The translations under genes were made by a program, and so were the position numbers. Below the pieces are notes generated by a model. It ran no database searches. It was not told where the DNA came from and saw only the letters and a list, made by a program, of their open reading frames with translations. Below are positions 1-17,860 of a DNA stretch of 41,349 nt, in pieces. This DNA is from Methanofastidiosum sp. GTDB lineage: Archaea; Methanobacteriota_B; Thermococci; Methanofastidiosales; Methanofastidiosaceae. Positions within the stretch are counted from its first letter, which is position 1. Every line of letters begins with the position of its first letter. The stretch covers positions 1-41,349 of the forward strand of contig JABLXD010000028.1 of the NCBI GenBank assembly GCA_013178285.1. Reading direction: 5' to 3'.

Positions 1-476
1 AAGATATTGCCCAATTTAGGAAAGTAAAAAGAGAAGCAGATAGATATGGAATGCCAATAATAGTTTGGTCTTATCCTAGGGGAAAAGCCATAGAAGAAAA
101 GGGAGGAAAAGAATCTCTGTACGCTGTAGACTACGCTGCACGTGTAGGGTGTGAATTGGGCGCAGATATTATAAAGATTAATTTTCCTGTAATCGACAAT
201 TCAAAAAGGGATTTGTATCCGGAACCATATAATCAATTAGATTTGTCCCCAGGAGAAGCTATTAAAAAAGTAGTAAAATCTGCAGGCAATACGATGGTCC
301 TTGTATCTGGGGGATCAAAGCTTGGGGATGAAGATCTTTTAAATAAAGTTAAACTTTCCATGGAAGCTGGTGCTACAGGAGTAATTTTTGGAAGAAATAT
401 TTGGCAAAGAAGTAGAGAAGATTCCTGGAAAATCAATGAGAAAATTAGAGACATCATGAAGGAATACCCACGGTGA
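1..476 (+). CDS. fba: Fructose-bisphosphate aldolase, archaeal class I (C-terminal part; 5' end outside window)
   Basis: The reading frame is open from base 3, so the start lies upstream. The visible 157 residues are the C-terminal half of a TIM barrel of the archaeal class I (DhnA/FbaB-like) aldolase family, which splits fructose-1,6-bisphosphate into glyceraldehyde-3-phosphate and dihydroxyacetone phosphate. Landmarks are VWSYPRG, matching the Trp/Tyr pair of the Thermoproteus tenax active site, GADIIKINF, holding the Schiff-base lysine, the phosphate-binding VSGGSK, and GATGVIFGRNIWQR near the end. The next gene, a PfkB sugar kinase, starts 4 bases after the stop. The related enzyme ADH synthase (aromatic amino acid route) is the alternative, but the glycolytic neighbours favour aldolase. 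Confidence 0.88.
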   Translation, partial: DIAQFRKVKREADRYGMPIIVWSYPRGKAIEEKGGKESLYAVDYAARVGCELGADIIKINFPVIDNSKRDLYPEPYNQLDLSPGEAIKKVVKSAGNTMVLVSGGSKLGDEDLLNKVKLSMEAGATGVIFGRNIWQRSREDSWKINEKIRDIMKEYPR

Positions 477-1457: not shown

Positions 1458-2786
1458 ATGAATGAACTAAAATTTGATTTTAAAGATAGTATGGTATTAC
1501 CAATAGATCTAAACTTAGTAGAAAAAAATATGATGGATGAGATTGATGTTTTAAACAATGTCGTTAAAAACAAGAATTATGAGGATTATAGATCCTTCAT
1601 TAATCTTCCTTATGACGAAGAATCTCTTAATAATATAAAAAAAATAATATACGAGAAAAAAAAATTAAATCCTAAATATTTAATCGTTATAGGTATTGGA
1701 GGGAGCAATCTTGGTACAACGGCTATTCAAGAAGCTATACTTGGAAAACTATACAATGAACTAAATCCAGATATTAAGATATTATATGCAGATACAGTTG
1801 ATTCAGATATTATGAGCAGTATTATACAAGTTATAGAGCCGATTTTACAAAAAGGAGAAAACATAATTATAAATGTAATCAGTAAATCAGGTAGTACTAC
1901 AGAAACTATCGCAAATTCTGAGATAATTGTGAATCTTCTTAAAAAATATAAAAAAAATTTCCAGGACTATATAGTTGTTACTTCTGATAAAGATTCTAAG
2001 TTATGGGAATTAGCTTTAGAAGAAAATTTTACATTATTAGAAATACCAAGAAAAGTTGTAGGTAGGTACTCAGTTTTTTCTGCTGTAGGATTATTTCCTC
2101 TTGGATTAATAGGGATTAATATTGATCTATTGCTTTATGGTGCAAAGGATATAATTCGAAAAAGTATAAACAAGAATTTAGAGTTAAATCCTGCGGCAAA
2201 AAGTGCATCTTTGATATATATCCACTATAAACGAGGGAGGAATATACATAATCTGTTCTTATTTAGTCCAGGAATGGAATCAATAGGCAGATGGTACAAA
2301 CAATTAATGGCAGAAAGCCTTGGGAAGGAATATAATCTCAAAAGAGAACATGTTTTTACAGGTATAACCCCGATAGTATCTATAGGATCAACAGACCTTC
2401 ACTCAATGACACAATTGTATTTGGCGGGACCAGACGATAAATTTACTACTTTTGTCAAAATAAAACATAATAGAAATATTTTGAGGGTTCCAAAAGAAAG
2501 AATTTATTCTAAATTAGTTAAGGGAATACAAGAAAAAAAGTTACAGACTTTAATGACTGCGGTATACAAAGGCGTTACCAAAACATTCAGAAATCACAAA
2601 AGACCATTCATGGAAGTTCGAATTAATAACAAATCTGAATATGCAATGGGACAATTTCTTCAGTATAAGATGATTGAAATGGTATATCTAGGGTATTTAA
2701 TGGATATTAATCCATTCAATCAGCCAAACGTTGAGGAATACAAAACTGAAACGAGAAAGATTCTGGAAAGAAAAAAGGGGGATTGA
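1458..2786 (+). CDS. pgi: Glucose-6-phosphate isomerase (PGI superfamily)
   Basis: A 442-residue conventional PGI, interconverting glucose-6-phosphate and fructose-6-phosphate. Two SIS domains are visible. GIGGSNLG and SKSGSTTET bind the phosphate, and ESIGRWYKQLMAESLGKE carries the catalytic Glu region. TDLHSMTQL carries the ring-opening His, and NPFNQPNVEEYK near the end carries the catalytic Lys. This is the bacterial/methanogen fold, not the cupin-type PGI of Thermococcales. It is third in the aldolase-PfkB-PGI run. Its 3' end overlaps the open frame of the downstream ferredoxin. It could also feed the trehalose genes around 4.9-10 kb. Confidence 0.93.
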   Translation: MNELKFDFKDSMVLPIDLNLVEKNMMDEIDVLNNVVKNKNYEDYRSFINLPYDEESLNNIKKIIYEKKKLNPKYLIVIGIGGSNLGTTAIQEAILGKLYNELNPDIKILYADTVDSDIMSSIIQVIEPILQKGENIIINVISKSGSTTETIANSEIIVNLLKKYKKNFQDYIVVTSDKDSKLWELALEENFTLLEIPRKVVGRYSVFSAVGLFPLGLIGINIDLLLYGAKDIIRKSINKNLELNPAAKSASLIYIHYKRGRNIHNLFLFSPGMESIGRWYKQLMAESLGKEYNLKREHVFTGITPIVSIGSTDLHSMTQLYLAGPDDKFTTFVKIKHNRNILRVPKERIYSKLVKGIQEKKLQTLMTAVYKGVTKTFRNHKRPFMEVRINNKSEYAMGQFLQYKMIEMVYLGYLMDINPFNQPNVEEYKTETRKILERKKGD

Positions 2787-3201
2787 TAGATTCAAACAAT
2801 TACAAATCAAAGATATTGAGAAATGTGTTGGATGCAGTCTTTGTATGTTTGCATGTGCTAGAAAGAATCCAAAAAAACCTGAAATTGGGATAGACTCCTC
2901 AGCTATTTTGGCTATAAGTTTAAGTGGTTTTGAAAGAGGAGCCACTATTATTTTTTGTAGAGCGTGTAAAAATCCGCCTTGTGCTGAAGTATGTCCAAAT
3001 GAAGCATTGATTCCGAAAAAAGGAGGAGGGGTCATGTTTGTTGAGGACAGATGTATAGCATGTCACAATTGTATGAATGCCTGTTCTATTGGGGCTATTT
3101 TCGAAAAGAGTAATGGTAAGCCAGCAGTTTGTATTCATTGTGGTTATTGTGTACAATTTTGTCCGCACGAAGTACTTACATTTGCGGAGGTGAATGATTG
3201 A
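2731..3201 (+). CDS. Ferredoxin-like electron-transfer subunit with four [4Fe-4S] motifs (AOR partner)
   Basis: A polyferredoxin of the HycB/AorA kind. Counted from the TTG at 2731, sixteen cysteines form four clusters: C32/35/38/42, C76/79/84/88, C108/111/114/118 and C134/137/140/144. It overlaps the next gene, an aldehyde ferredoxin oxidoreductase, by 4 bases and is most likely its electron carrier or small subunit. The start is uncertain. The TTG at 2731 lies deep inside the PGI gene, and no ATG, GTG or TTG in this frame follows the GGGGG at 2777-2781. Homologous sequence probably begins near FKQLQIKDIEKC (about base 2791). Confidence 0.88.
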   Translation: MRNTKLKRERFWKEKRGIDRFKQLQIKDIEKCVGCSLCMFACARKNPKKPEIGIDSSAILAISLSGFERGATIIFCRACKNPPCAEVCPNEALIPKKGGGVMFVEDRCIACHNCMNACSIGAIFEKSNGKPAVCIHCGYCVQFCPHEVLTFAEVND

Positions 3202-4931
3202 ACAGTCGGGTCTTAAAAATTGATTTATCGAAAAATAGTTTTGCTATACAGGATAGAAAAGAATTATTTAATGATTGGATTGGTGGAGTTGGCGTGGGTA
3301 CTCAGTTGCTTAAGGAAGAACTAAAATTAGAGGCAGACCCCTTAAGTGAAGATAATGTGATTATTTTTAGTATTGGGCCCTTTACACCTGCTTACCCTTT
3401 AGCTACAAAGACTGTCGCACTTTTTAAAAGTCCCCTAACTGGAGAATGGGGAGAAAGCCATGCGGGGGGAAGAACTGCAACAAGTATTGCGCATGCAGGT
3501 TATGGAGCAATTGTAATAAAAGGAATTAGTAAAAATCCAGTATATCTAGTAATTGAAGATGGAAATGTACTCTTTAGAGACGCTAGAGTTATTTGGGGAA
3601 TTGAAGATTCTAGGATAACGGGAAGAATAATTGCAGAAAGGGAAGAAGGAAAAGGTACTAGAACTGTTATGGCTATCGGAGGGGCCGGTGAAAAACTAGT
3701 TAGATACGCTTCAGTTACTACTGAAACTTATAGGCATTTTGGAAGATTAGGATTAGGTGCTATTTTTGGATCAAAGAATCTTAAAGCAGTTATGATTAGA
3801 GGTAAAAGCAGTAAAATTCCCGAAAATGCCAATATTTACAGGGATACTTATAACAAAATCTTCAAAATAGCAACAGAATCTGAAGCTATGAAAAAATACC
3901 ACCTTATCGGAACATCTGCAAATATACTTACTCTAAATCAAATAGGGGGATTGCCCACAAGGAATCTTACTTCAAATAAATTTGAGAATGGGGATAATAT
4001 AAGTGGAGAAAATATAGGTGAGAAATATTTGGGTAGAAGGATAGCTTGTAATCACTGCCCAACGGCGTGCATACATATAGCCTCTTTAAGAGAACCTTAC
4101 GAAAATAAAAATTATTTCTTTAAAACTTTAATGATATCATATGACTATGAATTAATATATGCCTTGGGATCCATGCTAGGGGTGGGGTCTGCAGATGGAA
4201 TATTAAAACTTATACATAAAGTTGAATCTTATGCCATAGATGCAATGAGCACTGGGGTATGCTTGGCTTGGGCAACAGAAGCTTTAAAAGAAGGTTTAAT
4301 TTCCACCAAGGATACTCTGATTGATTTTGAATTCGGAAATTATCAAAAATACCTTAATGGCATAGAATATTTAGTCAAACAACCAACTGATTTTTACAAA
4401 AATCTTGCCGAAGGTGTTAGAAAAGCTTCAGATGTATATGGGGGGAAAGATTATGCACTTGCTTTTGGTAAAAATGAAATGCCAGGATACCATACAGGCC
4501 CGGCATGCCATATAGGGGATCTAATTGGACTGAGGCATAGTCACCTAGACAATGCAGGATACTCTTTGGACCAGAAGGGCAAAGAATTTGATATAGAAGA
4601 ATTAGTGGATGAACTTGTCGAAGAAGAGATGTGGAGACAGGTACTCTCAAGCCTAGTCGTATGTTTTTTTGCAAGAAATGTATATACGCCAGAAATAGTT
4701 TGTGAAGCTTTTAAACCGCTTGGGGTATCAATAGATAAAGAAACACTAGAAGATCTAGGAAAGAAGATCTATTTAGAAAAATTAAGGCTTAAACAAAAGA
4801 TGGGCTTCAATATAAACTCATTAAATATTCCAGATAGAATATTTCAAACTGAATCCTCTAAAGGAAAAATAAGCAAAGATTATATTACTCAGGCTTTAGA
4901 TTATTATTCTAAAAAAATGGGTAAAGTCTAA
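3198..4931 (+). CDS. Aldehyde ferredoxin oxidoreductase family protein (tungstopterin enzyme)
   Basis: A 577-residue member of the AOR family, which oxidises aldehydes to acids with ferredoxin as acceptor, using a tungsten bis-pterin and one [4Fe-4S] cluster. The N-terminal domain has the family pattern ESHAGGR followed by HAGYGAIVIKG. Cluster ligands are C284, C287, C291 (CNHCPTAC) and C489 (LVVC). The TTG start at 3198 follows GGAGGTGA at 3186-3193 and overlaps the ferredoxin stop by 4 bases. The operon with aldolase, PfkB kinase and PGI raises the possibility of a glyceraldehyde-3-phosphate oxidoreductase (GAPOR), but the specificity cannot be decided by eye. The stop overlaps the convergent nucleotidyltransferase gene. 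Confidence 0.93.
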   Translation: MNSRVLKIDLSKNSFAIQDRKELFNDWIGGVGVGTQLLKEELKLEADPLSEDNVIIFSIGPFTPAYPLATKTVALFKSPLTGEWGESHAGGRTATSIAHAGYGAIVIKGISKNPVYLVIEDGNVLFRDARVIWGIEDSRITGRIIAEREEGKGTRTVMAIGGAGEKLVRYASVTTETYRHFGRLGLGAIFGSKNLKAVMIRGKSSKIPENANIYRDTYNKIFKIATESEAMKKYHLIGTSANILTLNQIGGLPTRNLTSNKFENGDNISGENIGEKYLGRRIACNHCPTACIHIASLREPYENKNYFFKTLMISYDYELIYALGSMLGVGSADGILKLIHKVESYAIDAMSTGVCLAWATEALKEGLISTKDTLIDFEFGNYQKYLNGIEYLVKQPTDFYKNLAEGVRKASDVYGGKDYALAFGKNEMPGYHTGPACHIGDLIGLRHSHLDNAGYSLDQKGKEFDIEELVDELVEEEMWRQVLSSLVVCFFARNVYTPEIVCEAFKPLGVSIDKETLEDLGKKIYLEKLRLKQKMGFNINSLNIPDRIFQTESSKGKISKDYITQALDYYSKKMGKV

Positions 4932-5923
4932 TGTTCATTTATTTTTGAATATTCGCCTAACACTGAATCTTTAAGTTTATTGTCATTGATTGAGCAATGA
5001 CTGTCAAGTATAGATTTATTTATCTGGGAATTTAATATTGAACTATTGTCAAAAATAACGGAATTACTAATTTTGGAATTATCTATCGTGCAATTTTCGC
5101 CTATGTATACGTTTGGACCTATAATTGAATTGTTTATTATTTTGGAATTATCTTTAATAACAACAGGCTCAATAATTTTTGAATTTTCATCTATTTCTAT
5201 ATTTCCAATATAATTCTTCATATAAATACTAAGTGATTCTAAATAAGAATCTGGTTTTCCTATGTCATGCCATAATCCTTCATGACAGGGAAACGCATAT
5301 ATTTCATCCTTTTCAGCTAAATAGCTAATGTAATCTCCTAGATTATCGACATTTCTTCCTTTTTCAATATACTCTAATAAAATATTTAGAGATTTTCTTG
5401 GAAGTATGTATATCCCCATTCCAGCAAGGGTAGAAGGTGGATTATCCGATTTTTCATGGAATTTTACTATTTTATCCTCCTCAAGTTCAGCTATCCCATA
5501 CCTTTTAGCAAGATATTCTGCCTTTACATCATACAATGCAGTTAATGGTTTTTTATTTTTCTTAAAATATTCATAAAATTGCTCTAAACCAAATGTAAAT
5601 AAATTGTCTCCTGCAATAAGAAAGATGTCATCATTTAGAATTTCATAAAGTTGCCCTAATGCTTTAACTGCGCCTAATTTCTCTTCTTCTTTTGTCGTTT
5701 TTTCTGCAATTACTTGAATACCCTTGTTCTTTGCCCATTTCTTAAAATCTTCTTCAAAAATTTGATTTGTTGATACGATTACTGGAAGATTGAATTTAGC
5801 AATTTTTGAGTAAACATGATCAATTATCGTTTCTTTTCCTATAGGCAATAATGATTTTGACCTTTTTCTAGTTATTGGCCATAATCTTGTTGCATATCCC
5901 CCGGCCATTATTACTATTTTCAT
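4928..5923 (-). CDS. Sugar-1-phosphate nucleotidyltransferase with left-handed beta-helix C-terminus
   Basis: A 331-residue two-domain protein. Residues 1-230 are a nucleotidyltransferase domain with GGYATRLWPIT, a downstream KSLLPIGK and IAGDN (metal-binding Asp). Residues 240-331 are irregular hexapeptide repeats rich in Asn, Ser and Ile, predicting a left-handed beta-helix. The family makes NDP-sugars such as GDP-mannose, dTDP-glucose or UDP/ADP-glucose; the sugar and base are not readable here. Its proximity to a phosphohexomutase and a TreT-type glycosyltransferase suggests NDP-glucose. A TATA-like box about 25 bases upstream fits a leaderless start at 5923. The gene is divergent from the MscS operon across a shared 145-base region. 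Confidence 0.88.
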   Translation of the reverse strand: MKIVIMAGGYATRLWPITRKRSKSLLPIGKETIIDHVYSKIAKFNLPVIVSTNQIFEEDFKKWAKNKGIQVIAEKTTKEEEKLGAVKALGQLYEILNDDIFLIAGDNLFTFGLEQFYEYFKKNKKPLTALYDVKAEYLAKRYGIAELEEDKIVKFHEKSDNPPSTLAGMGIYILPRKSLNILLEYIEKGRNVDNLGDYISYLAEKDEIYAFPCHEGLWHDIGKPDSYLESLSIYMKNYIGNIEIDENSKIIEPVVIKDNSKIINNSIIGPNVYIGENCTIDNSKISNSVIFDNSSILNSQINKSILDSHCSINDNKLKDSVLGEYSKINEH

Positions 5924-5942
5924 GATTAATATATAATTTTAG

Positions 5943-5952
5943 AATAAATAAA
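5943..5952 (-). promoter_or_regulatory. TATA box of the nucleotidyltransferase gene
   Basis: On the minus strand this reads TTTATTTATT, centred about 25 bases upstream of the ATG at 5923, the spacing expected for a leaderless archaeal transcript. Assigned by position and composition only. Confidence 0.45.
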
Positions 5953-5993
5953 ATTAATGTTTTAAATTCTATAATAAGAATAATTTTTACTTA

Positions 5994-6035
5994 TTTTGTC
6001 AAATATAGCTCATTTTAGTTTCAAATTTGACAAAA
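5994..6035. promoter_or_regulatory. 11-bp perfect inverted repeat, candidate operator
   Basis: TTTTGTCAAAT at 5994-6004 and its exact reverse complement ATTTGACAAAA at 6025-6035 are separated by 20 bases. The repeat sits between the divergent promoters of the nucleotidyltransferase gene (-) and the small membrane protein/MscS operon (+), ending six bases before the plus-strand TATA box. The centre-to-centre spacing of the arms is 31 bases, about three helical turns, as expected for a dimer binding one DNA face. The regulator is unknown. Confidence 0.5.
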
Positions 6036-6040
6036 AAGCT

Positions 6041-6049
6041 TTTAAATAT
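6041..6049 (+). promoter_or_regulatory. TATA box of the MscS operon
   Basis: TTTAAATAT is centred 24 bases before the ATG at 6069 with no ribosome binding site between, which supports a leaderless start at that ATG. Confidence 0.5.
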
Positions 6050-6068
6050 CTTTTACAAATATCATTGG

Positions 6069-6332
6069 ATGGAAAATCCTAAAGGAGTAGTCCCTACATT
6101 TCCAAAATTATCATTTAGAAACTTAGCCATATTTCATATCTTATTAATTTCAGGATATTTGATATTTAAGAATATGATTAGTCTTAGTTTATTTGAATCC
6201 ATAGCAATGCCATTAAACCTTGTGGCTGAAATTATATTAATTATTTGGTTTACTCTAATCATAGTAACGATTATTAGATTAATTACCTTTCTAGGAGGCA
6301 AATTAATTCCGAATATTAATCAATCAAAATGA
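6069..6332 (+). CDS. Small membrane protein, function unknown (upstream of MscS)
   Basis: An 87-residue protein starting at the leaderless ATG MENPKGVVP; an upstream in-frame TTG at 6027 would precede the TATA box and is rejected. Two hydrophobic segments, about residues 22-38 and 50-73, predict a two-pass membrane protein with a short basic tail. No family was recognised. Its stop overlaps the start of the MscS-type channel gene (ATGA junction), so the two are translationally coupled. An accessory role to the channel is inferred from that coupling only. Confidence 0.7.
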   Translation: MENPKGVVPTFPKLSFRNLAIFHILLISGYLIFKNMISLSLFESIAMPLNLVAEIILIIWFTLIIVTIIRLITFLGGKLIPNINQSK

Positions 6333-7363
6333 TCTTGGATAATCTTTGGATTTTACGGATATTGATATTGTTAATCAGTATTATTTTAAGTATTTTTATA
6401 ATTAATATTCTCTTTTATATCCTAAAAAAGGTTGATAGGGCAAAAAAATATATTAATTTCTTTAAATCAAAGAAACCTTTGATATTTTTTTCTTTCTTTG
6501 TCATATTTGTCATTTTAAATAATTATCTTGATAGTGAAATTATGAAAATTGATGCTGTTTCTTCTATTATAAAAATTCTTGTTATTTTCAATTTTGCTTG
6601 GCTTTCTATCTCTTTAGTAAACGTCTTAAATGATTATCTTTACCAAATATTTAATATCTCAAAGAAGGATAATATAAAAGAAAGAAAAATAGTTACACAA
6701 ATTCAATATATAAAATCTGTGCTAATATTCATAATTATTCTAATTAGCTGCTCTTTGATCTTAGTAAGTTTTGATAGTCTTAAAAATATAGGCGTAGGGC
6801 TAATTACTTCAGTTGGTGTCTTAGGAGTAGTCATCGGATTTGCAGCACAAAAATCATTTTCTAATCTATTGGCCGGATTTCAAATTGCATTTACCCAGCC
6901 AATTAGAATAGATGATGTAGTTGTAGTCGAAAAGGAGTGGGGCAGAGTAGAAGAAATAACATTAACATATGTAGTAGTATGCATATGGGATCAAAGGAGA
7001 TTAATATTGCCTATATCATATTTTATAGATAATCCGTTTCAGAACTGGACAAGGACATCAGCAGAGGTGTGGGGAACTGTATTTTTTTACGTTGATTATA
7101 AAATACCTATTTTGGAAATAAAACAAGAGTTCCATAAAATCCTTGAATCCTCAGAACTTTGGGATAAAAAGGTTGGCGTTTTACAAGTTACAGATACTAC
7201 TGAAAAGACTATGGAACTTAGGGGGATAGTCAGTGCTAAAGATTCGCCTCAGTTGTGGGATTTAAGATGTTATGTTAGGGAAAAAATGATTGAATATATA
7301 CAAAAACATTACCCGGATAGCCTTCCAAAAACAAGATTAGAATTTTCAGAGAAATTGAAATGA
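6329..7363 (+). CDS. MscS-family mechanosensitive channel
   Basis: A 344-residue small-conductance mechanosensitive channel that releases solutes when the membrane is stretched by hypo-osmotic shock. Four or five membrane helices occupy the first 190 residues. The pore-lining helix carries the Gly/Ala pattern GVLGVVIGFAAQKSFSNLLA, followed by FTQPIRIDD at the start of the cytoplasmic beta domain and the alpha/beta C-terminal domain. The start overlaps the upstream small membrane gene. Neighbouring trehalose-type genes fit an osmotic role. The family is clear; gating and selectivity are not. Confidence 0.93.
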   Translation: MILDNLWILRILILLISIILSIFIINILFYILKKVDRAKKYINFFKSKKPLIFFSFFVIFVILNNYLDSEIMKIDAVSSIIKILVIFNFAWLSISLVNVLNDYLYQIFNISKKDNIKERKIVTQIQYIKSVLIFIIILISCSLILVSFDSLKNIGVGLITSVGVLGVVIGFAAQKSFSNLLAGFQIAFTQPIRIDDVVVVEKEWGRVEEITLTYVVVCIWDQRRLILPISYFIDNPFQNWTRTSAEVWGTVFFYVDYKIPILEIKQEFHKILESSELWDKKVGVLQVTDTTEKTMELRGIVSAKDSPQLWDLRCYVREKMIEYIQKHYPDSLPKTRLEFSEKLK

Positions 7364-7390
7364 TGTGTTTTGAAAATATTAGCTTATGGA

Positions 7391-8713
7391 TTAGAGCTCA
7401 TACCAAGGATGAAAGCTAACAATACTCTCTTTGGGCAAAAACTCCATTGTCTCAACGGCCAAGAGATAATCATATGCCCTACCGGGCATTAAGAATCTTT
7501 GCTTAACAAATTTCTTTGCTCTTTTTCCGATTGTTTCTCTTTTTTCTGGATTTCGAAGGAGCATGACTATAGTTTCTATTCTTTTATCTGTATCATATAA
7601 TAAAAATCCATTTTTGTTAGGAACTATTTGAAGAGTCAATCCTCCAACTGGTCGCCCAACAACAGCCTTTTCTTTCCATAATGCTTCGGTAACTGTAAGA
7701 CCGAATCCCTCTTTTATTGAGTTTTGGACTACAACTGTGGCAGCCCTTTGTATTGCATTTACCTCAATATCGGGAAGATTAAGAAGTATATGAACGTCTT
7801 TTGTATGTTTTATTTTTTGTTTAACATCCTCTAAGACTAAAATTGATTCAGGATCGTCATTTGCCATACTACCAATTAAAACAAGTTGACAATCTTCCAT
7901 TTTCTTTACGTTTTTATAAATAGAAATAAGCCCCACAGGATCTTTCCACTTATCAAATCTACTTACTTGAAGAATTATGGGTTTATTTTTTTGAATATTA
8001 TATTTATCAATAATCTCGTCAATATAATCCTGTTTTAACTCTTTGTTTTTCTCTGAGAGGGGATCAATATATGGGGGGATTATAAACTTTGGCAAATTCC
8101 AGCTTGATACCACATATTGGACGTTAGAAAAGATCGCCGAATCATAATAGCTTGCCCACTTAGTTATCAACTTCTCTAAATTTTCATTTTTAAGAAACAC
8201 ATCGATATCTAGGTCGATGTGACATCTCCATAGCCATTTTTCTTTTTCTTTTTTTAGATAACTTGCCAAGCCTAAAGGTTGGGGATCATGAACAGTAATT
8301 ACGTCATAATGCTCGTCTATTATATTTTTCTTTACATTTGCCTCTGTGCAAGCTACATATATATCTTCCATGTTTTTTGTAAAATCCTGTTTTTTTCCTT
8401 GCAACAAATTATGAATTGATTTTGTCACAGTAAAGAATTCATCTGTTCCTTTCATGACTTTCCAATCATCTTCTATCCCAATTTCATTTAAGAAGGGAAC
8501 AGAAGATTTTAGCATCTCTGCAACCCCCCCACCAAAAGCTGTGGAATTTACCTCCAATATTTTAATTCCATTTAGATCTTTAGCTAATTCCTTTAATTTA
8601 TGTATTTTCTCTTTCCCCACCACTTTGGAGTACTCTCTAAGGGCCGGAACTTTTAATTTAGTGATATTCTTTCTTTTACTATATACAGTTTCATTACTAT
8701 CAATTTCTTCCAT
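7391..8713 (-). CDS. treT: GT4 glycosyltransferase, trehalose synthase TreT type
   Basis: A 440-residue GT-B glycosyltransferase resembling the glycosyltransferring trehalose synthase of Thermococcales and Thermoproteus, which joins an NDP-glucose to glucose to form trehalose. Diagnostic stretches are NSTAFGGGVAEML near the N-terminus, HDPQPLG, SRFDKWKDP at the start of the nucleotide domain, and KEGFGLTVTEALW with the E-x7-E-type donor site. It lies 9 bases after the phosphohexomutase in the same direction, forming a mutase-to-transferase operon. A related trehalose phosphorylase or another NDP-sugar transferase cannot be excluded without alignment. Confidence 0.82.
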   Translation of the reverse strand: MEEIDSNETVYSKRKNITKLKVPALREYSKVVGKEKIHKLKELAKDLNGIKILEVNSTAFGGGVAEMLKSSVPFLNEIGIEDDWKVMKGTDEFFTVTKSIHNLLQGKKQDFTKNMEDIYVACTEANVKKNIIDEHYDVITVHDPQPLGLASYLKKEKEKWLWRCHIDLDIDVFLKNENLEKLITKWASYYDSAIFSNVQYVVSSWNLPKFIIPPYIDPLSEKNKELKQDYIDEIIDKYNIQKNKPIILQVSRFDKWKDPVGLISIYKNVKKMEDCQLVLIGSMANDDPESILVLEDVKQKIKHTKDVHILLNLPDIEVNAIQRAATVVVQNSIKEGFGLTVTEALWKEKAVVGRPVGGLTLQIVPNKNGFLLYDTDKRIETIVMLLRNPEKRETIGKRAKKFVKQRFLMPGRAYDYLLAVETMEFLPKESIVSFHPWYEL

Positions 8714-8722
8714 AAAACCTAT

Positions 8723-10012
8723 TCACCGATTCATTATTTTTTTTACATCTCTTATTCTTTCATATAATATCTCTTGATTGTTAGATTCTATATTTACTCT
8801 GAGTAAGGACTCAGTATTTGATGGTCGAACGTTGAGCCACCAATCTTTGTAATAAATAGAAATGCCATCTATTTTTTCTACAGCCCCTTCACTAAAATTT
8901 GTTAAAATCTCGTTCATCTTAGAGTATTTATCGGGGACTTCAAAGTTCAATTCTCCACTCTGGTAATATTTGCTATACTTATCTGCAACATTACTTAAGG
9001 TATTATTTTCAATACTTTTTAGGATATATAGAAGGGCTAAAAGAGGTGCTTCAAATCCTCCAATTTCCATGAAATAAAAATGATTGGATAATTCTCCAGC
9101 AAATATTGCATCCTTTTCTTTCATTAATTTCTTTATGAAATAATGGCCTACTCTTGATTTAATGGGTGTTCCGCCCTTACTAATAATTGTTTCAGGAACA
9201 ATATTACTACAGCGCAGATCGTAAATTATATTTCCCTTTGATTCAGAAAGCAGTTGCTCTGCAATTATAGCAGTTAGAATATCTCCTCTTATGGGATGAC
9301 CTTTCTCGTCTATTATCCCAATTCTGTCACCATCCCCATCAAATATTATCCCAATATCTGCTTTTTCTTCTAATACTTTATTGATTATATTTTCTAAACA
9401 ATCAGGAGTCATAGTGTTTGGTACATGGTCTGGGAAATTGCCATCTGGAACAAAGGAAAGAAAACTTTTATTTTTAAAAATAATATCTAATATTTTTCTT
9501 TCAACTACAGATGCACCGCTTGAAAAATCAACGACGATTTTATAGTCCTTAGCATTTTCAAATTTTTTTAAATAATAATTTGTATATTCAGTTTCAAAGT
9601 CAATTTTATAATCTTCAGCATTTTCAAATATTTCAGATAGTTCGTATTCCTTAAATATAGGTTTAATTTGATTAATAGGTGAAAGTGGCAATCCATCAAT
9701 TCCACATACTTTGAAACCTCCAAATTCTTTAGGATTGTGTGATGCAGTTGCTATGACGCCAATGTCAAAATTCTTTTTTGTTAAAAAATACATTAAGGGA
9801 GTTGAAATCATCCCTGCATAGCTAATTTTTGAGCCTTCATTAATAACTCCCGTTACAAAAGGGTCTTTAAATTTTTCAGAACTTATTCTGGAATCAATGC
9901 CAAATAAAATATTTTTATACAATTTTCCAAAAGTTCTACCCAGACTATATGCAAATTTTTCATCGATTTCGTCGGGGTAATGGCCCCGTATATCATATAA
10001 TTTAAAAATCAT
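8723..10012 (-). CDS. Phosphomannomutase/phosphoglucomutase
   Basis: A 429-residue alpha-D-phosphohexomutase that moves phosphate between C6 and C1 of glucose or mannose. All four family sites are present: the phosphoserine loop ATASHNPKE, the metal loop DGDGDR, the sugar-recognition loop GELSNHFYF (GEMSGH in many relatives), and the phosphate loop RPSNTES. Length is normal. Residues around 130-160 contain a near-duplicate, FENAEDYKI and FENAKDYKI. The gene precedes treT and would supply glucose-1-phosphate to the nucleotidyltransferase at 4928-5923. An AGGTATAATG-like start context is shared with the upstream MFS gene. Confidence 0.92.
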   Translation of the reverse strand: MIFKLYDIRGHYPDEIDEKFAYSLGRTFGKLYKNILFGIDSRISSEKFKDPFVTGVINEGSKISYAGMISTPLMYFLTKKNFDIGVIATASHNPKEFGGFKVCGIDGLPLSPINQIKPIFKEYELSEIFENAEDYKIDFETEYTNYYLKKFENAKDYKIVVDFSSGASVVERKILDIIFKNKSFLSFVPDGNFPDHVPNTMTPDCLENIINKVLEEKADIGIIFDGDGDRIGIIDEKGHPIRGDILTAIIAEQLLSESKGNIIYDLRCSNIVPETIISKGGTPIKSRVGHYFIKKLMKEKDAIFAGELSNHFYFMEIGGFEAPLLALLYILKSIENNTLSNVADKYSKYYQSGELNFEVPDKYSKMNEILTNFSEGAVEKIDGISIYYKDWWLNVRPSNTESLLRVNIESNNQEILYERIRDVKKIMNR

Positions 10013-10055
10013 TATACCTTATTATAATAGGATTTAGGCTTTATTAGTTTTTTGA

Positions 10056-11567
10056 TTATTCTTTATACCTATAGATATTTTTTAATCTAATTTTTTTCAT
10101 GAGCCTTCTTTTTAAAAAATCGTTATTTCTAACTAATAACATTGTTGAAAATGGGAATTGAATCATATACCTTAATCCGCCACCTATATTGGAAAATCCC
10201 CTAATGCCATGTCTCGCTTCTAAAAATAATTCATTGAAAATAATTTTTTTTCTTGTTTCTTCACCTTCTTTTACAACTGCTAAACTGTGTAGTGAATACA
10301 GTCCAATTAAAAAGGCCAAGAAAAAAAAGAAATCCCAGGATTTTAGATTAAACGTTTCAAATAATAGTGCGTTTTCAGGCGATATCCATTCAAGAGTCAA
10401 TGCTAATTCTCTTTTTTCAAAAAAATCGGCAAACAAGCCACCAATTATAGGGGCTATAGCTGCAGTTATTGAATTTATTATGCTTGAAAGTGCAAGATAT
10501 GCAGTAGAATTACCTTCTGGCGCCAATTTCAAGGTTATATTTCCAGAAGCTAATGACACTCCAGCTGCAGATATGCCCATAGTGGCATGAACTAATACCA
10601 ATAATGGCATTGTTAGGAAATATTTTTCTGGCAATGTTGTAAAGGTCCAACCAAGTATGCTTAAAATAAAAAGAGGCCCACAAACTTGCAGTACAGATTT
10701 ATTGCTGAATTTATCAGATATTCTTCCCCAAAAATGCAAAAAGAAAAATGTCATTAACTGCCCTAACACCATCAGAATTATGATAGTGGACATATTTAGT
10801 TCCAATCTTTTTAACATATAAACGGTAAAGAATGGTGCGGCCAAGTTGACTGCAAAATTCCATGATCCCAAAAATTTTATTAGATTTCTATAATTTTTAT
10901 CTCTTAGAGGCTGAGAAAATAGCATTAGGATATTGCTTTCTGCTTTCAATGACATACCTGGCTCAGGTATCTTAGAAATATAATACACTCCGATTATCCC
11001 AGATAAATATCCAAAAAAGAATATTATAGAATAGCTAAATATGCTTAAATCAGGATAAGAAGTACTCCAAAAATCAATGAAAAAGCCTGCTATAAGCGCT
11101 ATTGGAATAGTTGACAATGTTGCGAGTCTCATCCTCTTTGAAAAAAATGAGCCTAATACTTCTATAGGTATTAGATCTCTCATCCAAGAGTTCCAGCTGC
11201 ACCCACCTATAGATGAAAATATTGATTGGAATATTAAAAACAAGACGAACAAAATAATGCCTAAATTAAAATTGACTAAGCATGGCAACAAAGCTATTAA
11301 TAAAATAAAGGATCTGCTGAATGCGGAAGAAAACATTGAGATTTTTCTTCTGTCCCTATATTTCTCAACTATATAAACAGAAGGTATTTGGATAAGATTT
11401 GCTATAGCAGGAATTGATGCCATAATTCCTATTAGTAAATTTGATGCCCCAAGACTTAATGCAAATGCTGTGAGAAAAGTTCCACTTGTCAAAGTTATCA
11501 TTATCTGGCTTGTTACCCCGTCACGAAGTATATATTTCAGGCCAGTATTTTGATCATAAGAGTTCAT
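10056..11567 (-). CDS. Major facilitator superfamily transporter
   Basis: A 503-residue polytopic membrane protein with about 12 hydrophobic helices and a typical MFS layout: loop 2-3 region YIVEKYRDRRK, a mid-protein break around residues 195-225, and GRISDKFSNK in the equivalent loop of the second half. The basic C-terminal tail is cytoplasmic. The substrate is unknown. It lies 43 bases upstream of the phosphohexomutase in the same direction, so it may be co-transcribed with the trehalose genes and carry a sugar, but that is inference. A GAGGT ribosome site precedes the ATG. Confidence 0.85.
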   Translation of the reverse strand: MNSYDQNTGLKYILRDGVTSQIMITLTSGTFLTAFALSLGASNLLIGIMASIPAIANLIQIPSVYIVEKYRDRRKISMFSSAFSRSFILLIALLPCLVNFNLGIILFVLFLIFQSIFSSIGGCSWNSWMRDLIPIEVLGSFFSKRMRLATLSTIPIALIAGFFIDFWSTSYPDLSIFSYSIIFFFGYLSGIIGVYYISKIPEPGMSLKAESNILMLFSQPLRDKNYRNLIKFLGSWNFAVNLAAPFFTVYMLKRLELNMSTIIILMVLGQLMTFFFLHFWGRISDKFSNKSVLQVCGPLFILSILGWTFTTLPEKYFLTMPLLVLVHATMGISAAGVSLASGNITLKLAPEGNSTAYLALSSIINSITAAIAPIIGGLFADFFEKRELALTLEWISPENALLFETFNLKSWDFFFFLAFLIGLYSLHSLAVVKEGEETRKKIIFNELFLEARHGIRGFSNIGGGLRYMIQFPFSTMLLVRNNDFLKRRLMKKIRLKNIYRYKE

Positions 11568-11677: not shown

Positions 11678-12238
11678 TTATTTGATATTAGAATAAATTT
11701 CAGGGACATATTTCAAAATAATTTTCATTCTTGAGTCATCCTCAAATTGGTCAGGAAAACAGAAGTTTGGGGTAACTTCATATTTATAGCCTTGTTCCAA
11801 TAATCCATATGCAATAAGCTCGCAACAAACAACATTTTTGTCGATGTCAATCCTAAAGTATTTCCTCAAATCTTTCTTGATCAGTCTTTTAATTAAAAAT
11901 AGATTCCCCGTCCTGAGAAATTGAATGTAGCTGTATCCCAATCCAAGGTACATCATGCAGTCCTTAACAAGTTTATCTTTGTCAATGTAATCTGGGGGCC
12001 TCACTATCATTAAGTCATCTGTATCAAGATAATCCTTTACTTCTTTTACCTGGACCCCACCAACAGTCGATTCAACGCTCTTTTCATATCCCATATACAA
12101 TCTGCAGTGTGGCCATCTAGCATCTGGAACGGCCTTACATATGATAGATTCAATTGGACTTTTTTCATTTCTGCTCAGTATTATGTCCCCCTTTTCGAGT
12201 GATGAAATGAATTTTTCTTTAGAAGACGTAATTTCCAT
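11678..12238 (-). CDS. Permuted papain-like (YiiX/YaeF-type, NlpC/P60 clan) hydrolase
   Basis: A 186-residue protein with the circularly permuted papain order. GDIILSR near residue 18 is followed by the catalytic-His segment PHCRLYMG, then VESTVGGVQ, and the catalytic Cys late in the chain in VVCCELIAYGL. Relatives act as amidases, peptidases or lipid-modifying acyltransferases. There is no signal peptide or membrane anchor, so it is probably cytoplasmic. An AGAGGAT site precedes the ATG at 12238. It is monocistronic, divergent from the flavodoxin gene. The fold is fairly secure; the substrate is unknown. Confidence 0.72.
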   Translation of the reverse strand: MEITSSKEKFISSLEKGDIILSRNEKSPIESIICKAVPDARWPHCRLYMGYEKSVESTVGGVQVKEVKDYLDTDDLMIVRPPDYIDKDKLVKDCMMYLGLGYSYIQFLRTGNLFLIKRLIKKDLRKYFRIDIDKNVVCCELIAYGLLEQGYKYEVTPNFCFPDQFEDDSRMKIILKYVPEIYSNIK

Positions 12239-15182: not shown

Positions 15183-16979
15183 TTAAGGATTATCCGGAGC
15201 ACCTAGACTTGATGAACAAGATATGTCCATAGTAGTCTCTGGGAATCCTTCTTTATTTTGAATTTTGTCCATTTCACGATTCTTTCTCTTTTCTAGTTCT
15301 TCTTTTTCTAAGACCCCATATGCTACTTTTCCTATTAGAGTCAATGGTAATTCTTTTCTAAACTCAATTTCTTCTGGACAGCTCCATTTTATCAAGTGCT
15401 CTTGACAATAATCCATAAGTTCTTTTGCTAGCTCTTTGCTTGCTTTAGATGGATCTTTCAAAGAAATAAATGCTTTGACACTTTTCATTTTGTGAGGATG
15501 GGGAATTCCAATAGCGCAAGATAATGCGACTAGAGGATGACTGTCCAAAACATCTTCAATCTGCGATGGATAAACATTCATTCCAGAGGATATTATGATT
15601 CGTTTAAGTCTTTGCTTAAAATAGATAAATCCATCAGGATCCATATGACCTGCATCTCCAGTGTGAAGCCATCTTTTTCCATCGGGATGAACTTTAACAG
15701 TTTTCTCCGTTTCTTCAGGATGGTCAAGGTATCCTCTCATCAGTGTAGGGCCGCTGACACATATTTCGCCTTCTTCTCCCGGAAGAGCTTCTTCAAATGT
15801 GTCTAGTTTTACTATCTTGATAATAATGTCCGATAGAGGTATTCCTACACTTCCCTGCCTATAACTATTTTTAGGCATAATAGTAACACCCGTTACAGAT
15901 TCAGTTAATCCGTAACCTTCTCTTAAAACAACATTTCCCCCGGATTTTGAAGCTGCATTTTCAAATTCTAATTTAATATCATGAGGGAGATGATCTCCAC
16001 CACAGAATGCCCCCTTTATACAGCTAAAATCGACCTTGGATATCTTAGGATTTCTAGCAAGTGCAGCATAAAGAGTTGGAACACCTGCCATATATGTGGG
16101 CTTTTTAGTTTTTATTAGATTTAAAACAGTTTCTGCAGAAAACTTAGGAACTAAAATACATTTGCCGCCATCAATCAAAAAGGTATGCACACAAACCCCT
16201 AGGCCGAATCCATGAAATATTGGGAGAATTGAAAGAACTGAATCACCTTCTACCAATGGCCCCTGTGCAGTGGCTTGCATAGCGAGACAGTTTAGATTAT
16301 GACTTGAAAGTTCAATCCCTTTAGGAACTCCCGTAGTTCCACCACTATAGAGAATAACTGCAAGTTCATCAGGATCCATTTTTATTTTTTCTATTTGAGA
16401 GTACTCATTTTCCATTAGATCTTCCCACCAAGAGACTCTCGGATCGAATGGGACTTTTTTTATTTTTCTTCCAGATGTTAGTTTAAATCCAATCTTTTTT
16501 AGGGTTGGGAGATAGTCTGTTATTTTTGCGAGTATTAGTTTTTCAACTGATGTAGACTCTAATATATCTATAAAATTACCATAAAATGCATCAAGTGTTA
16601 TAGCATATTTGCTTTTGCTTAAATTAAGGTAAAATTTTACTTCTTTTGGGGGGGAAAGTGGGTGAATCATGCTCGTTATGCCGCCAATTTTGTTCGCGGC
16701 ATAAAAACAAATAATCGCCTGTGGACAGTTAGGCATACATATAGTAATCCTATCGCCCTTTCTAAGGCCAAGGGCGTAAAGAGCATTGGCAAAGCGATCT
16801 ATATCGGCTAAAAATTCTCTATATGTTGAAGTAAGGTCTAAAAAGTCATAAGCTATCCTGTCTGGATATTTCATAGAGGCATCGTAAATAGCCTCATACA
16901 TTGTTTTTTTAGGATAATCGATTGATTCAGGGATATAAGATTCGTAATACTTTAACCACGGCTTTTTTTCATACATCAT
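15183..16979 (-). CDS. AMP-forming acyl-CoA synthetase (ANL superfamily)
   Basis: A 598-residue adenylate-forming enzyme that activates a carboxylic acid to acyl-AMP and then acyl-CoA. Motifs in order are the P-loop YSGGTTGVPKG (about 211-221), GYGLTES, HTGDAGHMDPDG, the hinge KRIIISSGMNVYP, and IGKVAY holding the catalytic lysine. The C-terminus has an extra, Ser- and Pro-containing tail of about 30 residues. The closest group by eye is long-chain fatty acyl ligases; the substrate is undetermined. A GGAGGG site precedes the ATG, which overlaps the stop of the E2-like gene by 4 bases, so the two are translationally coupled. Confidence 0.92.
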   Translation of the reverse strand: MMYEKKPWLKYYESYIPESIDYPKKTMYEAIYDASMKYPDRIAYDFLDLTSTYREFLADIDRFANALYALGLRKGDRITICMPNCPQAIICFYAANKIGGITSMIHPLSPPKEVKFYLNLSKSKYAITLDAFYGNFIDILESTSVEKLILAKITDYLPTLKKIGFKLTSGRKIKKVPFDPRVSWWEDLMENEYSQIEKIKMDPDELAVILYSGGTTGVPKGIELSSHNLNCLAMQATAQGPLVEGDSVLSILPIFHGFGLGVCVHTFLIDGGKCILVPKFSAETVLNLIKTKKPTYMAGVPTLYAALARNPKISKVDFSCIKGAFCGGDHLPHDIKLEFENAASKSGGNVVLREGYGLTESVTGVTIMPKNSYRQGSVGIPLSDIIIKIVKLDTFEEALPGEEGEICVSGPTLMRGYLDHPEETEKTVKVHPDGKRWLHTGDAGHMDPDGFIYFKQRLKRIIISSGMNVYPSQIEDVLDSHPLVALSCAIGIPHPHKMKSVKAFISLKDPSKASKELAKELMDYCQEHLIKWSCPEEIEFRKELPLTLIGKVAYGVLEKEELEKRKNREMDKIQNKEGFPETTMDISCSSSLGAPDNP

Positions 16980-17860
16980 TTTCCCTCCGTTTCTATCAAA
17001 TAATCCTTAATATCTTCTTCAGAAGGTGGCTTTTCTAGTAGTTCAGGATTCTGCATAAATTTAGTAAAAAGCTCAATAGCTTTAACAAAATATATTCCTT
17101 CACTTATACGATCATCTAAAGTACAGCCTATTCTAACTACCTCTTTAACTTTTAATTCACCTTCATCATCAATAACTGGGGCTTTATGAATCTTGCCCAG
17201 TACCATAAAATTTGATGTATTTCCATATTCAAACAGATGATGGAATACAGAATCTAGCCCTAAACTACCAAGATTAGAAACATACACACTCGCATACATT
17301 GGGTCATCTTTGACTATAGACGCCGGTAAAATTCCATAATAATCAAGACCTCTCCATACCCAGACTATAAATCTTAAGATAAAATCAGGGAACTTAATAA
17401 GAAGGTCTATTTCTTTTTCTTCGTGCTTTTTTTCATCTCCTCTGCCATATTCTAGAGCTTTAGCCATTCGTTGTATCACTGTGTCCAAAGTATCTCTTGG
17501 TTCAAAAGTAACTTTAATATTCGAATACCCTGCGTCCTCGTCCAATTTTTTCTTGACAATCATCGAGATTTGTATTTCGTTTCTTTGGAATATTCGTCTG
17601 CCCATAACAAATCTATTCAATTGTGGCCTCATAGCTACTGTCCTAACTAAAGAAGCAATAAAAATATGAAAAAACTTAACTTTCTTTTCACTTAACCCCT
17701 CATTAACTTTTTCCATATATTCCAAAGTTTTCTCAACTTCAAAATCAAAATCTGCATAAATTGCCGATTCAGTTCTCGTTTTCATTACAAATGGATAAAT
17801 CCTCTTATAATTGGGTAATGTTCTTATCTGCTTACCGTCGCATCTATCGCCAAAGGCCAT
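16976..17860 (-). CDS. E2/chloramphenicol-acetyltransferase-like protein without lipoyl domain
   Basis: A 294-residue stand-alone acyltransferase-fold protein of the 2-oxoacid dehydrogenase E2 catalytic class. Supporting segments are FFHIFIASLVRTVAMRPQLN (about 63-82), VYVSNLGSLGLD (about 192-203) and the C-terminal GCTLDDRISEG. In true E2 and CAT the last site is HxxxDG with catalytic His; here the equivalent is DDRISEG (249-255), so the His is Asp and the DG is EG. There is no lipoyl or E1-binding domain. GGTGAT precedes the ATG. It is coupled to the acyl-CoA synthetase downstream. It could bind or transfer an acyl group by a modified mechanism, or be a non-catalytic partner. Confidence 0.8.
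   Translation of the reverse strand: MAFGDRCDGKQIRTLPNYKRIYPFVMKTRTESAIYADFDFEVEKTLEYMEKVNEGLSEKKVKFFHIFIASLVRTVAMRPQLNRFVMGRRIFQRNEIQISMIVKKKLDEDAGYSNIKVTFEPRDTLDTVIQRMAKALEYGRGDEKKHEEKEIDLLIKFPDFILRFIVWVWRGLDYYGILPASIVKDDPMYASVYVSNLGSLGLDSVFHHLFEYGNTSNFMVLGKIHKAPVIDDEGELKVKEVVRIGCTLDDRISEGIYFVKAIELFTKFMQNPELLEKPPSEEDIKDYLIETEGK

Follow-up and report, generated by a model that had tools for sequence, protein, structure and literature searches.

A probable accessory trehalose island with a linked MscS-type channel in a Methanofastidiosales archaeon

The window analysed here comprises an entire contig (C28, 41,349 bp) of a 2.12-Mb Methanofastidiosales genome (G000), which falls into a set of ten congeneric genomes. 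The locus at its left end is probably an accessory trehalose island, carried by three of the ten genus genomes (G000, G001 and G003). It continues leftwards past the contig end to glucokinase and OtsAB genes at the start of contig C12; the C12 end overlaps the window start by 205 bp, 204 of them identical, inside the aldolase gene. The left half of the island thus reads OtsAB (-), glucokinase (+), fructose-bisphosphate aldolase (FBA, +), PfkB (+), phosphoglucose isomerase (PGI, +), ferredoxin (+) and AOR (+), followed in the right half by a nucleotidyltransferase (-), a small protein and MscS (+), TreT (-), a phosphohexomutase (-) and an MFS transporter (-). From OtsAB to the MFS gene the full unit spans about 15.5 kb in G000, and the size of the island is put at about 14-15.5 kb. 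A preliminary description of the window had named genes that make up the right-hand two thirds of the island, and searches against Pfam, NCBIfam and the PDB confirmed its nucleotidyltransferase, MscS, TreT, phosphohexomutase, MFS transporter and PGI at the coordinates given below, including the position of PGI upstream of the nucleotidyltransferase and that of the MscS operon, which runs in reverse direction between the nucleotidyltransferase and treT (strands -, +, -).

The OtsAB gene (L070 1955-4153 on contig C12, minus strand) encodes a fusion (TPSP) covering both the TPS and the TPP fold, with a GT20 part that matches solved TPS structures over residues 3-466 and a second part that matches solved TPP from about residue 483. 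Judged by family, it is unambiguously a trehalose-synthesis gene. The window itself opens with the 3' portion of a gene for a class I FBA of the DhnA/DeoC type (3-476, plus strand), the remainder of which lies on C12 (L070 3-620) and whose ortholog in G001 occupies L034 3244-4134. It is followed on the same strand by a PfkB-family sugar kinase, presumed to be a phosphofructokinase (481-1449; PF00294, E 9.8e-39; 91% identical in G001, 72% in G003), by PGI, recognised by profile matches (1458-2786; 91% identical in G001, 64% in G003), by a polyferredoxin-like 4Fe-4S protein (2731-3201, with a true start probably near 2790) and by a tungsten oxidoreductase of the AOR family (3198-4931). The ferredoxin and AOR genes are intact in G000 and G003; in G001 they persist as remnants (254 bp at 77% and 183 bp at 74% DNA identity, respectively; L034:6445-6868, between PGI and the nucleotidyltransferase), that of AOR being marked by deletion, and because the pair has decayed there it is dispensable. 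An assignment of the AOR as GAPOR was rejected, its score against the NCBIfam GAPOR model being 36 of 1300. The glucokinase and PfkB families run toward glycolysis, and by their family assignments glucokinase, PfkB, aldolase, PGI and ferredoxin/AOR make half of the island catabolic.

In the right half, the nucleotidyltransferase (4928-5923, minus strand) is a sugar-1-phosphate nucleotidyltransferase with an NTP_transferase domain (PF00483, E 5.5e-42) and a left-handed beta-helix C-terminus. Among the NCBIfam models it is closest to RmlA_long, and the phosphohexomutase of the phosphoglucomutase/phosphomannomutase family (8723-10012, minus strand), in which all four PGM/PMM domains were found, is closest to PMM/PGM; both score below the cut-offs, and the nucleotidyltransferase reaches none of the NCBIfam equivalog cut-offs. 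G000 has another nucleotidyltransferase of the same type, located among glycosyltransferase-like genes on contig C22. A related nucleotidyltransferase also occurs in G010, a member of another family of the order, clustered with an AOR, a MalK-like ATPase and a phosphohexomutase that seems to be broken into two frames (L051:126-5232); this cluster stands apart from the TreT-MalEFG-TrmB cluster of the same genome. The MFS transporter (10056-11567, minus strand) is present in G000 and G001 and was not found in G003, and a PDB search returned no solved relative of it. The right boundary is marked by a YaeF-like gene with a permuted papain fold (11678-12238, minus strand), which a profile match and the comparison of empty sites place outside the island. 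Further to the right, at 15183-17860, a long-chain acyl-CoA ligase-like gene lies beside a 2-oxoacid dehydrogenase acyltransferase-like gene, a pair kept in several congeners.

The island-specific MscS-type channel (6329-7363, plus strand; PF00924, E 7.8e-16) has 344 aa, is 86% identical in G001 and 78% in G003, and aligns with solved MscS chains across the TM and beta domains, so that the beta-domain and the preceding pore helix are both present. Its start codon is overlapped by a small gene (6069-6332, plus strand) for an 87-aa protein with two hydrophobic stretches, 71% identical in G001 (dN/dS 0.20). The start of this gene is most likely the ATG at 6069, which replaces a TTG at 6027 and is shared by G001. 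The 145-bp spacer before the pair is identical at 133 of 145 positions (92%) between G000 and G001, though identity falls to 60% in the adjoining nucleotidyltransferase. Within the divergent nucleotidyltransferase/mscS promoter region, G000 has a perfect 11-nt inverted repeat (TTTTGTCAAAT-20 nt-ATTTGACAAAA, 5994-6035), a possible operator, whose right arm is not intact in G001. An island-wide operator or regulon was rejected, since a search ahead of the other island genes did not find this palindrome.

A separate, distant MscS-family gene occurs in every genome of the order except G009, a non-carrier represented by a draft that is 91% complete. This is apparently the housekeeping channel, to which the island MscS is an addition. 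The island MscS is found only in carriers and always within the island: its place is between the nucleotidyltransferase and TreT in G000 and G001, and directly upstream of FBA in G003, where TreT and the nucleotidyltransferase are adjacent and co-directional (L035). Two contigs of G003 (C159 and C134) join inside AOR by a 22-nt overlap that yields a gap-free match over 575 aa, and the contig with the G003 glucokinase would join upstream of MscS. Beside the true junction with C134, the end of C159 repeats a short piece of its own sequence in inverted orientation (L035:4060-4181), probably an assembly artefact. The preliminary description had staked its grouping on MscS being linked to the other genes in relatives; that linkage was found in all three carriers and in two gene orders. 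A chance neighbourhood of MscS was rejected given its absence from all non-carriers and its place inside the island, at two positions, in all carriers.

TreT, the GT4 trehalose glycosyltransferring synthase (7391-8713, minus strand), combines the N-terminal domain PF21269 (E 1.1e-46) with a GT4 C-terminal domain (PF00534, E 1.7e-25). Its best PDB matches are the solved TreTs 2x6q, from P. horikoshii, and 6zj4, which we assume is the Thermoproteus uzoniensis enzyme that PMC11046441 mentions. Over 20 TreTs including these two, 79 columns are invariant, among them R239, K244, E326 and E334 in P. horikoshii numbering. Against the NCBIfam equivalog NF041139 the protein scores 378 bits, below the cut-off of 775, a low score to be read in light of a model built for Thermococcales. 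The nearest named relative, 74% identical, lies on a contig of a Candidatus Methanofastidiosia archaeon. The TreTs of the genus are extended at the N-terminus and end in a C-terminal tail (ESIVSFHPWYEL, window 7391-7430); the tail is identical in all three carriers, and none of the other TreTs compared has it. The acceptor of the genus TreTs could differ, because near the active site they depart from otherwise conserved positions (S159D, S202Y) and have four residues inserted next to the HIDL motif. In other members of the class, TreT adjoins MalEFG, MalK and TrmB (in G010 and in nearly all Thermococcaceae loci read), and in G010 additionally an ADP-dependent glucokinase-like gene.

Within the genus, TreT, the island MscS, OtsAB, glucokinase and FBA/PfkB/PGI each occur in exactly the three carriers, the last three having been traced in a single search with a concatenated query. 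In four non-carriers (G004, G005, G006 and G007) the genes flanking the island, namely an ABC-2 ATPase and permease on the left and the YaeF-like gene on the right, lie 4, 9, 4 and 4 bp apart and form a precise empty site, which rules out assembly gaps as the cause of absence in these genomes; its absence from G002, G008 and G009 is judged on draft assemblies, and the three carriers likewise come from drafts. In G000 and G001 the island sits exactly between these flanks, and G003 shares the left edge. The island is therefore one unit, gained or lost as a block. Since carriers and non-carriers differ by this block at a clean empty site, and since MscS lies inside it at two positions, the channel and the trehalose genes belong together. 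We noticed neither an integrase nor a transposase within the island.

A single inherited, clade-wide trait was not supported. Pelota identity to G000 is 91.7% in G002, 90.8% in G009, 88.5% in G001, 82.9% in G004 (partial sequence) and 80.7% in G003; on the pelota tree, whose inner branches are weakly supported, the carriers require three changes and form one clade in 0% of 200 bootstraps. Synonymous distances are uneven, so that the island looks like a mosaic: OtsAB, PfkB, PGI, MscS and its small partner gene give 0.3-0.7, glucokinase, TreT, PGM and MFS exceed 1.2, and the nucleotidyltransferase is at saturation. Island genes with estimable dS are under purifying selection, and OtsAB, present in every carrier, is strongly constrained (dN/dS 0.08). 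Between G000 and G001 the YaeF-like gene shows 97% identity, far above that of the next two genes beyond it (63-84%), which suggests that the island was exchanged together with this flank.

The closest published parallel is the msc-gt-tpsp operon of Thermoproteus tenax, for which the authors proposed trehalose synthesis under stress and channel release afterwards, and whose arrangement they described as unique to Thermoproteus/Pyrobaculum (PMC3634074). Both loci unite a fused TPSP, a GT4 glycosyltransferase and a mechanosensitive channel conserved in relatives. The island belongs to a different phylum, and its GT4 enzyme is a true TreT, whereas the T. tenax GT is a PimA-like TPS activator. Its MscS of 344 aa, with an 87-aa partner, stands in opposite orientation, while the T. 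tenax msc, of 197 aa, is the first gene of a tricistronic operon. OtsAB and MscS of the island lie on opposite strands with glycolytic genes between them rather than in a single co-directional msc/gt/tpsp operon, and the island adds glucokinase and glycolytic genes. By gene content and order, then, it resembles the T. tenax system in outline and is not a member of it by its defining operon. The MalEFG-TreT-TrmB-MalK locus of Thermococcales has a homologous TreT, about 42-45% identical to that of the island, which unlike that locus has neither an ABC importer (MalE/F/G) nor TrmB beside treT and carries OtsAB, glucokinase and MscS instead. Coexistence of TreT with a TPS/TPP route is shared with the trehalose network of Sulfolobus acidocaldarius (TreT, TreY/TreZ, GT4-TPS/TPP), where trehalose is needed under salt stress (PMC7688234); that network is not reported as one island with MscS, and its TPS is a GT4 enzyme, whereas the island OtsAB is a classical GT20 fusion. 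In the literature on Methanofastidiosum we found no account of a trehalose route.

Taken together, the locus is probably a trehalose island with synthesis by OtsAB, breakdown by TreT, hexose burning and release through MscS. From the gene families and their arrangement we infer the reaction directions, the identity of the solute, the role of the channel and the substrate of AOR. OtsAB would make and store trehalose; TreT, the nucleotidyltransferase and the phosphohexomutase would interconvert trehalose with glucose and glucose-1-phosphate, breakdown being the more probable direction; glucokinase would rescue the glucose freed by TreT; PGI, PfkB and aldolase would burn the hexose phosphates, together with AOR/ferredoxin in two of the three carriers; and the dedicated MscS would vent solute on down-shock. 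By analogy with the T. tenax precedent (PMC3634074), the island may be osmotically regulated. Against this reading stand the housekeeping-type MscS-family gene of nearly all genomes of the order, which means that a channel alone needs no island, and the fact that MscS has its own promoter region and is read opposite to its neighbours, which gives no evident sign of co-regulation.

The direction of TreT cannot be read from its sequence, and on it turns the version of the preliminary description, in which TreT, fed by the nucleotidyltransferase and the phosphohexomutase, is a main synthesis route of an osmolyte vented by MscS. Toward trehalose, TreT requires free glucose as acceptor, which the OtsAB route does not. 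Members of the enzyme families for the proposed complete path from glucose-6-phosphate to trehalose are present, but because of this need the path is not self-sufficient, and the island-encoded glucokinase would compete for the glucose; the MFS transporter could import it, yet was not found in G003. TreT of S. acidocaldarius does synthesise in vivo during salt stress (PMC7688234), the T. tenax TreT is unidirectional and acts in synthesis (PMC3634074), and the conserved MscS linkage suits this version as well. OtsAB, however, by its family already synthesises from glucose-6-phosphate and is the obvious synthesis route rather than TreT. Because the kinases run toward glycolysis and TreT across the class sits in sugar-uptake loci, we consider breakdown somewhat likelier than synthesis for the island TreT, and the TreT-driven version as a whole rather unlikely. 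Of the idea that a compatible solute is synthesised and released from one locus, a trehalose locus with a linked MscS holds, with OtsAB alongside and the block linkage, and TreT as a self-sufficient synthesis route is not supported.

A purely catabolic use, in which trehalose or glucose is imported by the MFS transporter and burnt while OtsAB and MscS are secondary, would account for the glycolytic set of glucokinase, PGI, PfkB, FBA and AOR and for the MFS gene of two carriers. It is improbable given the retention of OtsAB under strong constraint in all carriers, an island without an ABC sugar importer of the kind found in family f2 and Thermococcaceae, and a transporter that is missing in G003 and had no characterised relative in our searches. 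Very improbable is a surface-glycan precursor cluster, in which the nucleotidyltransferase and a phosphomannomutase make NDP-mannose or dTDP-sugars next to TreT and MscS as chance neighbours: the sub-threshold affinities to RmlA_long and PMM/PGM point that way, but the entire block is gained or lost along with OtsAB and glucokinase, TreT and the nucleotidyltransferase are adjacent and co-directional in G003, and another such nucleotidyltransferase, on C22, sits among glycosyltransferase-like genes.

Beyond the trehalose island as such, we tentatively consider, at less than even confidence, an independently assembled 'store, burn and vent' island that a lineage of methyl-reducing methanogens would have acquired or lost whole, at one fixed site. 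In it, OtsAB would store trehalose, TreT, glucokinase and ferredoxin-linked glycolysis would draw on the store, and on down-shock the dedicated MscS, together with its partner protein, would vent it. If this were true, loci combining a channel with trehalose genes would have arisen at least twice in archaea. A second trehalose-MscS arrangement, in a distant lineage and in two gene orders, would make the synthesise-then-vent model general and testable by comparison. It would also show that uncultured methanogens, for which a minimal diet is assumed, can acquire or lose a trehalose and hexose-burning module wholesale.
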